Below are positions 11,394 through 12,743 of a DNA stretch of 49,654 nucleotides, piece by piece. The number at the start of each line of letters is the position of its first letter. Within the stretch, counting starts at the first letter, position 1. This DNA is from Candidatus Zhuqueibacterota bacterium (GTDB taxonomy: Bacteria; Zhuqueibacterota; Zhuqueibacteria; Residuimicrobiales; Oceaniaggregativiventaceae), in NCBI GenBank assembly GCA_014728085.1, contig WJMF01000050.1:1-49654 (forward strand). Direction: 5' to 3'. The notes under the pieces were generated by a model. It did not search any database, was not told the origin of the DNA, and was given only the letters and a program-made list of their open reading frames with translations. A program made the translations under genes and the position numbers.

Positions 11394-11458
11394 TGGTGAT
11401 ATGACCACCTTTTCCCGATAATTTTGGGCATATCACCATGTTGGTGAAATGCCCAAAA
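11394..11458 (+). promoter_or_regulatory. Leader region with two mutually exclusive hairpins upstream of the HU gene
   Basis: Three related segments occur in a row: TGGTGATATG (11394-11403), CATATCACCA (11429-11438) and TGGTGAAATG (11442-11451). Segment 2 pairs perfectly over 10 bp with segment 1. It also pairs with segment 3 in a longer 17-bp stem (11422-11438 with 11442-11458, one mismatch, TGT loop). The two structures cannot coexist. No U-tract follows the second stem, so it is not a standard terminator. It may control mRNA stability, processing or translation, or be a protein site. The whole leader from 11381 to 11611 (231 nt) shows no convincing gene. Confidence 0.5.
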
Positions 11459-11611: not shown

Positions 11612-11899
11612 TTGAATACGTCTGCGATAATAAAAGAGTTGTCGTTGCGGTTGCAAAAACCACAAAACGAAACCAAAACGCTTTTGGATACGACACTTGA
11701 CGTTTTCAAAAAGACCCTCGGTAAAAACAGGGGAGTCATCCTGCAAAATTTTGGTTCCTTTTACATCAAAAAACGGGAGCGACGGAAAGGTTTTAATCCA
11801 CTCAATAACAGTTATATTATACTGCCTCCCAAGATGGTGCTCGTTTTTAAACCCAGCTCCGCTTTGAAAGAAAAAGTAAAGAACCGGAGGGTGGAATGA
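11612..11899 (+). CDS. Small HU/IHF-type DNA-binding protein (TTG start)
   Basis: The open frame extends upstream to an ATG at 11438, but that ATG lies in the loop of a strong hairpin and the first 58 residues resemble nothing. TTG at 11612 has AGGAGGGG (11596-11603) 8 nt before it and gives a 95-residue protein, the normal HU length. It starts MNTSAIIKELS, has the helical dimerisation half, then the saddle motif NFGSFYIKKRERRKGFNP and the IILPPKMVLVFKPS arm and return strand. Such proteins bend and bind duplex DNA as dimers. The next gene starts within its stop codon (ATGA), and encodes another HU domain, so a heterodimer between the two is plausible. Sequence is divergent from classical HU; the DNA-intercalating Pro of the arm is not certain. 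Confidence 0.75.
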   Translation: MNTSAIIKELSLRLQKPQNETKTLLDTTLDVFKKTLGKNRGVILQNFGSFYIKKRERRKGFNPLNNSYIILPPKMVLVFKPSSALKEKVKNRRVE

Positions 11900-12681
11900 A
11901 CGAGACCATAACCAAACAACAATTATGCGACAGGATCGCAAAACGGGCCGGCTGTTCAAAACAGCTCGCTCATGAGATCGTTGACGAGTTACCCGATATT
12001 ATCGAAAAAGGTTTATACGAAGACGGACAGGTGCGACTCGCGGGTTTGGGAACCTGGAAATTAAAGTGGATGGAATCAAGAGAAGGCCGAAATCCGCAGA
12101 CCGGTGAAAGTTTGATCATCCCCGCGCACAGCAAAGTTATATTTCGGCCGGAAAAATCGTTACGTGAATATATCAACAGAAAATATAAACACCTTAAAGC
12201 AAGAGAATTAAATGCCGGACAGGCGGAGAAATGGGACGAAAAAGAAAAGAATAGAAAAGGCTGGTACTGGATCGCAGCTGCGTCCGTGGTCATTGTTCTG
12301 CTGCTCATCGTTTGTCCCGGCCGGCAAGAAAACCAATCGCTCGAGCCGTCGCAAAGCATAGCTGCTGATAAAACGACGCAAAGCAATAACAGCGGCGTAC
12401 AGGAAAACGTAACCGTCGCCGGGCAAAAAAGCATAAAAAACACAACCGTTGCCATGACGACCCCGGCTCCTGAAGGTAAAACACCGTTGGCAAACAAAAC
12501 AACCCATGTGGTGGAAAAAGGCGACAACCTCTGGAACCTGTCCGACAAATACTATGATAATCATTTTTTATGGCCCAAAATATATCGCAGCAATACAGAA
12601 AAAATCAATGATCCCAATTTGATCTATCCGGGATGGAATCTCTCCATCCCGGAAACAAAGTCCCCTCGTAATGGGGGGTGA
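11896..12681 (+). CDS. HU DNA-binding domain fused to a membrane segment and a LysM domain
   Basis: The 261-residue protein joins three parts. Residues 1-92 are a good HU domain with GLGTWKLKWMESREGRNPQTGE and the IPAHSKVIFRPEKSLREYI strand. Residues 122-141 are a single hydrophobic membrane segment (WYWIAAASVVIVLLLIV) flanked on the inside by a charged linker. Residues 145-200 are a Ser/Thr/Asn-rich spacer, and 202-251 a LysM domain (THVVEKGDNLWNLSDKYY...). With the N-terminus inside, DNA binding is cytoplasmic and peptidoglycan binding is periplasmic. HU-SPOR fusions are known in Bacteroidota; I do not recall a characterised HU-LysM one. It overlaps the small HU gene by 4 nt and ends the operon. 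Function as a DNA-to-wall tether is inference. Confidence 0.88.
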   Translation: MNETITKQQLCDRIAKRAGCSKQLAHEIVDELPDIIEKGLYEDGQVRLAGLGTWKLKWMESREGRNPQTGESLIIPAHSKVIFRPEKSLREYINRKYKHLKARELNAGQAEKWDEKEKNRKGWYWIAAASVVIVLLLIVCPGRQENQSLEPSQSIAADKTTQSNNSGVQENVTVAGQKSIKNTTVAMTTPAPEGKTPLANKTTHVVEKGDNLWNLSDKYYDNHFLWPKIYRSNTEKINDPNLIYPGWNLSIPETKSPRNGG

Positions 12682-12709: not shown

Positions 12710-12743
12710 GAAAGAGCTCGGTTATCCGAGCTCTTTCTGTTTC
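12710..12743 (+). terminator. Rho-independent terminator after the HU-LysM gene
   Basis: A perfect 12-bp stem (GAAAGAGCTCGG at 12710-12721 with CCGAGCTCTTTC at 12726-12737) closes on a TTAT loop and is followed by a T-rich but interrupted tail. It lies 29 nt after the HU-LysM stop codon and closes the GT9 to HU-LysM operon. The stem is symmetric in base content and could also work in the other direction. Confidence 0.85.

Follow-up and report, generated by a model that had tools for sequence, protein, structure and literature searches.

The 49,654-nucleotide stretch analyzed here, hereafter the window, encodes two adjacent proteins: a small stand-alone HU/IHF-type protein (sHU) and a fusion that carries an HU domain, one membrane segment and a LysM domain in a single chain. 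We propose that the two may form an IHF-like heterodimer with one subunit anchored through the membrane to peptidoglycan and DNA held at the envelope, a reading to which we assign a probability of roughly 60%. How bacterial chromosomes hold their position with respect to the envelope is an open question, and the known chromosome-envelope links mostly need several proteins (ParA-HubP, RacA-DivIVA). If the reading is correct, one polypeptide carrying an HU/IHF domain and a wall-binding domain on opposite sides of the membrane would be the most direct link.

The HU-LysM fusion and the adjacent HU gene

The host of the window is a KSB1 bacterium with an assembly of 5.19 Mb in 244 contigs (97.9% complete); relatives with names in its phylum are mostly labelled "candidate division KSB1". 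The features of the region are as follows.

11422-11458: inverted repeat, 17-nt arms (94%), 3-nt loop; RNA -22.6 kcal/mol, z -5.3
11612-11899, + strand: sHU, 95-aa stand-alone protein of HU/IHF type, starting at a TTG; PF00216 1.3e-20
11896-12681, + strand: HU-TM-LysM fusion, 261 aa, ATG at 11896, stop at 12679-12681; PF00216 and PF01476, one membrane segment
11911-12177, + strand: fusion residues 6-94, the HU domain (Pfam), with arm GRNPQTGE and intercalating proline P67
12259-12315, + strand: single transmembrane helix, residues 122-140, with a Lys/Arg-rich N-terminal side (hydrophobicity, model)
12316-12504, + strand: disordered periplasmic spacer, ~60 residues; pLDDT < 50 over 141-199
12505-12651, + strand: LysM domain, residues 204-252; PF01476 2.2e-8, AlphaFold fold
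12710-12737: perfect 12-bp hairpin right after the fusion stop, without a clear T-run

An earlier note made from the sequence had placed the fusion at 11896-12681, which is exact, and its ATG is preceded by GGAGG. The layout read there, HU followed by one membrane segment and LysM, is one on which Pfam, hydrophobicity and AlphaFold agree. PF00216 matches residues 6-94 at 6.6e-25, above the curated cut-off, and PF01476 scores 34.3 bits against a curated cut-off of 20.9; the only hydrophobic segment is 122-140 (mean Kyte-Doolittle 2.38). AlphaFold predicts the expected HU fold at the N-terminus (pLDDT ~90 across most of residues 11-90), a helix at 121-139 over the membrane segment, a disordered spacer at 141-199 and the beta-alpha-alpha-beta fold of LysM (pLDDT ~91). 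The matches listed by Foldseek are HU/IHF structures, among them the Anabaena HU-DNA complex 1p71, with a TM-score by target of 0.72-0.75. In sequence, the fusion is best matched in the PDB by single-chain IHF, and its LysM part matches the LysM domains of TsaP (best) and Kbp. PADLOC models of anti-phage defence gave no match at E <= 0.1. Among the matches listed from plasmid and phage records the HU part alone was covered, and no record spanned 80% of the query.

The separate small HU gene that had been described is present, and its stop overlaps the fusion ATG by 4 nt (ATGA). The TTG start at 11612 is preceded by a AGGAGGGG motif and its placement is backed by relatives; a longer ATG frame from 11438 lacks such support from relatives. 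Both window proteins match PF00216, and the beta-arm and arm proline that mark the HU fold are present. Their NCBIfam scores are closest to IHF alpha, at 69 and 51 bits versus 111 for NF001401, so neither reaches an IhfA or IhfB equivalog cut-off. In our proposal, sHU is a soluble subunit that pairs with the anchored HU domain.

Membrane topology and spacer

In the window fusion, Lys/Arg residues number five inside versus one outside the membrane helix, and across 49 homologues they are commoner on the HU side in 46, with two ties and one opposite case. By the positive-inside rule, this bias predicts a cytoplasmic HU domain and a LysM domain outside, as the earlier note had expected in placing the two ends on opposite sides of the membrane.

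The periplasmic spacer has a median length of 63 residues across the family (range 36-100, CV 0.24), whereas the cytoplasmic linker varies freely from 19 to 255 residues (CV 0.58). Low variation of this kind would be expected if the spacer had to bridge a fixed gap to some layer. A 60-residue disordered chain would span ~20 nm when fully stretched, enough for the gap between inner membrane and wall. The Ser/Thr-rich composition first noticed for the spacer holds for the window species alone; in most of the relatives aligned the spacer is rich in Pro/Glu. Most relatives also carry a helical domain C-terminal to LysM (median 68 residues), modelled as four helices in the locus L096; this conserved domain (L096:3758-4810, last 80 residues) matched nothing in Pfam when full-length relatives were scanned. 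It is absent from the window species, whose frame stops 8 residues past LysM.

Distribution and evolution of the pair

A single-protein search of genome contigs found no relatives. As a profile query, alignment A3 was too diverse and A4 was usable. Among 82 genomes of the KSB1 phylum, a profile of 14 homologues picked out the fusion in 20, representing 8 of 23 families; in two of the 20 the fusion is degraded, and in two it is split or truncated at a contig end. Of 395 Bacteroidota genomes sampled, 36 had the fusion at a threshold of 1e-30 or better, and the fusion is conserved in relatives, a point on which the earlier note had left doubt. Thirty of the Bacteroidota loci were inspected, and every one combines a single membrane segment and a LysM match with an immediately preceding HU gene of 94-114 aa. 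The patchy presence in both phyla (20/82 and 36/395) indicates that the pair is not generally essential.

We assembled a paired set of 50 loci over both phyla for which sHU and anchored HU sequences were available; it includes L040. In every one of the 50, sHU immediately precedes the fusion and shares its strand, and the two genes overlap by exactly 4 or 8 nt in 34 of them, as judged from mechanically called starts. A tree of the 50 sHU, the 50 anchored HU and 12 other HU domains was built from few columns and many of its inner forks are weak; in it sHU forms one clade (support 100/99) and anchored HU another (100/97), and the two branch internally in a similar way. When pairwise distances are compared, sHU correlates with anchored HU at 0.83 (permutation maximum 0.15), and anchored HU with its own LysM at 0.68. 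The LysM alignment behind the second value is short, and common descent by itself also produces correlation. Wherever dS could be measured, dN/dS fell within 0.06-0.29. The two similarly branching clades and the low dN/dS point to one ancient two-gene unit, and from these sequence comparisons sHU and the fusion look like a single old system under selection.

Several loci depart from the common form. The fusion at L040:9093-9653 (G007) is missing, in frame, its membrane segment and half of its LysM domain, and that at L042:1799-2362 (G004) has a stop codon after the membrane segment; these could be real losses or assembly errors. L102, one of four named Bacteroidota loci, is in two frames, possibly through a frameshift introduced by sequencing or assembly. 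G008 encodes, immediately ahead of the pair, a third HU protein of 157 aa (L036:7415-7888) that has a C-terminal membrane segment and no LysM and is possibly a decaying duplicate. G058 holds two copies of the pair (L038 and L039), the second with a truncated LysM. In one KSB1 genus (L044, from 8791 onward, L045, L046 and L048), an 8-residue insertion, RGPYYKKNYT-like, lies near the N-terminus of the anchored HU domain and is unseen in other members. The Bacteroidota-labelled pairs L098, L100 and L099 branch with the KSB1 pairs L038, L085 and L086 in both HU trees, where gene transfer or mislabelled assemblies are possible.

Gene context

The earlier note had put the pair in one operon with a two-component system and a glycosyltransferase, which is doubtful. 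The response regulator and sHU of the window are 231 nt apart, with a strong inverted repeat (11422-11458) between them, and a two-component system, here of the sigma54 type, with a heptosyltransferase-type gene precedes the pair only in the window genome (G000) and a member of its family (G001). Elsewhere the flanking genes differ between lineages, and recurrent neighbors resemble lineage synteny. Such differences would fit a structural unit better than a regulator acting locally. Candidate roles for the inverted repeat are operator, attenuator or mRNA hairpin; it has no second copy in the genome, and a matching palindrome was not found in G001, the nearest relative. A search for the sigma54 promoter consensus gave nothing above chance. 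The hairpin at 12710-12737 probably marks the end of the transcription unit, and it was not reported by the terminator scan.

Proposed mechanism and alternatives

In the mechanism that we propose, sHU would pair in the cytoplasm with the fusion's HU domain, and the resulting IHF/HU-like heterodimer would bind and bend DNA. The fusion would cross the inner membrane once, its flexible spacer running through the near periplasm, and its LysM domain, which by sequence may bind GlcNAc-containing glycans, would bind peptidoglycan. The complex would keep DNA at the membrane and couple it mechanically to the wall, and the purpose of this coupling may be nucleoid positioning or segregation. HubP of Vibrio is a functional precedent, a membrane protein anchored by LysM and coupled to the chromosome origin. 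The DNA-wall tether suggested in the earlier note thus has the layout, the topology and the conservation of the pair in its favor, but the tether itself, like heterodimerization, DNA binding, wall binding and the cellular role, is something we infer. LysM is also known in non-wall proteins, and the K+-binding protein Kbp among the PDB matches is a counterpoint. On this reading, carriers in KSB1 and Bacteroidota probably have a direct physical link between DNA and cell wall.

The main rival is a transmembrane transcription regulator, ToxR/CadC-like, in which LysM would sense wall state or fragments and HU/sHU would alter promoter architecture. A single membrane helix that separates an internal DNA-binding domain from an external ligand-binding one would suit this arrangement, as would the position of the pair behind a sigma54-type two-component system in G000 and G001 and the unique palindrome upstream of it in the window. 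However, HU/IHF domains are architectural and not promoter-selective, the palindrome has no match in G001, and the sigma54 consensus is not enriched. Neighboring genes also offer no conserved target, which does not favor a dedicated regulator of adjacent genes, and we regard this explanation as unlikely. Somewhat less probable again is an anchor at the membrane surface with no real wall binding, where LysM and the C-terminal helical domain would bind another envelope protein or glycan. LysM profile scores are indeed weak in many members, L129 and L121 having no Pfam LysM at E <= 1 and L044 falling below the cut-off, and both the extra helical domain past LysM in most members and Kbp among the sequence matches fit such an anchor. 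Set against these are LysM core residues conserved family-wide, a best PDB LysM match to TsaP, a periplasmic LysM protein, and the constrained spacer length.

It is also conceivable that the HU domains no longer act on DNA and serve only as a platform for protein-protein contacts in the cytoplasm, a role that has been proposed for eukaryotic CCDC81. Some anchored HU domains are near neutral or acidic, with net charge down to -7, most of the DNA-arm motif is lost in L049 and L087, and sHU has a weak, sub-threshold similarity to PF14908. Yet the arm proline at the HU/IHF intercalating position is retained by 46 of the 50 anchored HU domains and by 46 of the 50 sHU proteins, the arm motif is largely conserved in the family, and sHU of the window is strongly basic (net charge ~ +15). 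Canonical HU gives comparably weak scores to PF14908 and PF18289, so the similarity of sHU to PF14908 is not informative, and we consider this last explanation very improbable. The envelope-anchored heterodimer is the reading we prefer. A wider version of it, in which a widespread two-protein "wall-tethered IHF" of KSB1 and Bacteroidota joins nucleoid to peptidoglycan and the HU-HU-SPOR proteins are a parallel solution, is put forward tentatively, at a little under even odds.

Comparison with known systems

A literature search for an HU-LysM system, HU-SPOR or nucleoid-wall anchors found no description of the HU/HU-LysM pair in the papers covered. Like the pair, IHF (IhfA/IhfB) and HU heterodimers consist of two distinct HU-fold subunits; those heterodimers are soluble, whereas one subunit of the pair is membrane-anchored. 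The HU-HIG family of Bacteroidota (PF18291) shares the HU fold, and the window protein scores 28.3 bits against its cut-off of 26.2, a cut-off that canonical HU proteins of KSB1 also exceed. HIG tails are wHTH, Ig or Gly-rich, in contrast to the TM-LysM of the fusion.

HubP of Vibrio has a periplasmic LysM, a single membrane helix and a link to the chromosome origin via ParA1 (PMC8789113). HubP/FimV thus resembles the fusion in its periplasmic LysM, one membrane helix and cytoplasmic part connected with the chromosome (PMC8789113), but it has the reverse domain order, acidic repeats and TPR in place of HU, and reaches DNA via ParA1 only. No TPR or FimV domain matched in the fusions scanned, and the HubP/FimV sequence of LysM, TM, acidic repeats and C-terminal FimV/TPR domain is absent from them.

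The earlier note had named HU-SPOR proteins as the nearest known idea, and we concur, with the addition that they are a separate family with tandem HU domains in one chain. These HU-CCDC81_bac proteins of Bacteroidota (PF18174, PF18175, TM and SPOR) resemble the HU/HU-LysM pair in combining two HU domains with a single membrane helix and a wall-binding C-terminal domain. They differ in having both HU domains in one chain, the first of them short (PF18174, 59 positions), and in carrying SPOR where the fusion has LysM. The window proteins scored 13.0 and 12.3 bits against PF18174 and PF18175 (cut-offs 26 and 35). SPOR (PF05036) was found in neither the window protein nor six other fusions, and is present in L106 and L108. 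Descent of the CCDC81 HU1 domain from sHU was considered and rejected; the scores are below cut-off and those of canonical HU are comparable. HU-CCDC81_bac proteins over the cut-off occur in none of the 82 KSB1 genomes and in 66 of the 395 Bacteroidota genomes, with no overlap with the 36 HU-LysM genomes where 6.0 would be expected. The split between HU-SPOR and HU-LysM in Bacteroidota probably follows lineage. Three genomes outside this sample (G082, G084 and G085, Bacteroidales/Bacteroidetes) have both.

A chromosome-partition role for the HU-CCDC81_bac group was reportedly predicted by Burroughs et al. in 2017 in Cell Cycle. The HU-HU-TM-SPOR proteins of Bacteroidota are the closest known design to HU/HU-LysM, and recurrence of the pair in two phyla alongside this similar design suggests a general strategy of the Bacteroidota-KSB1 group.
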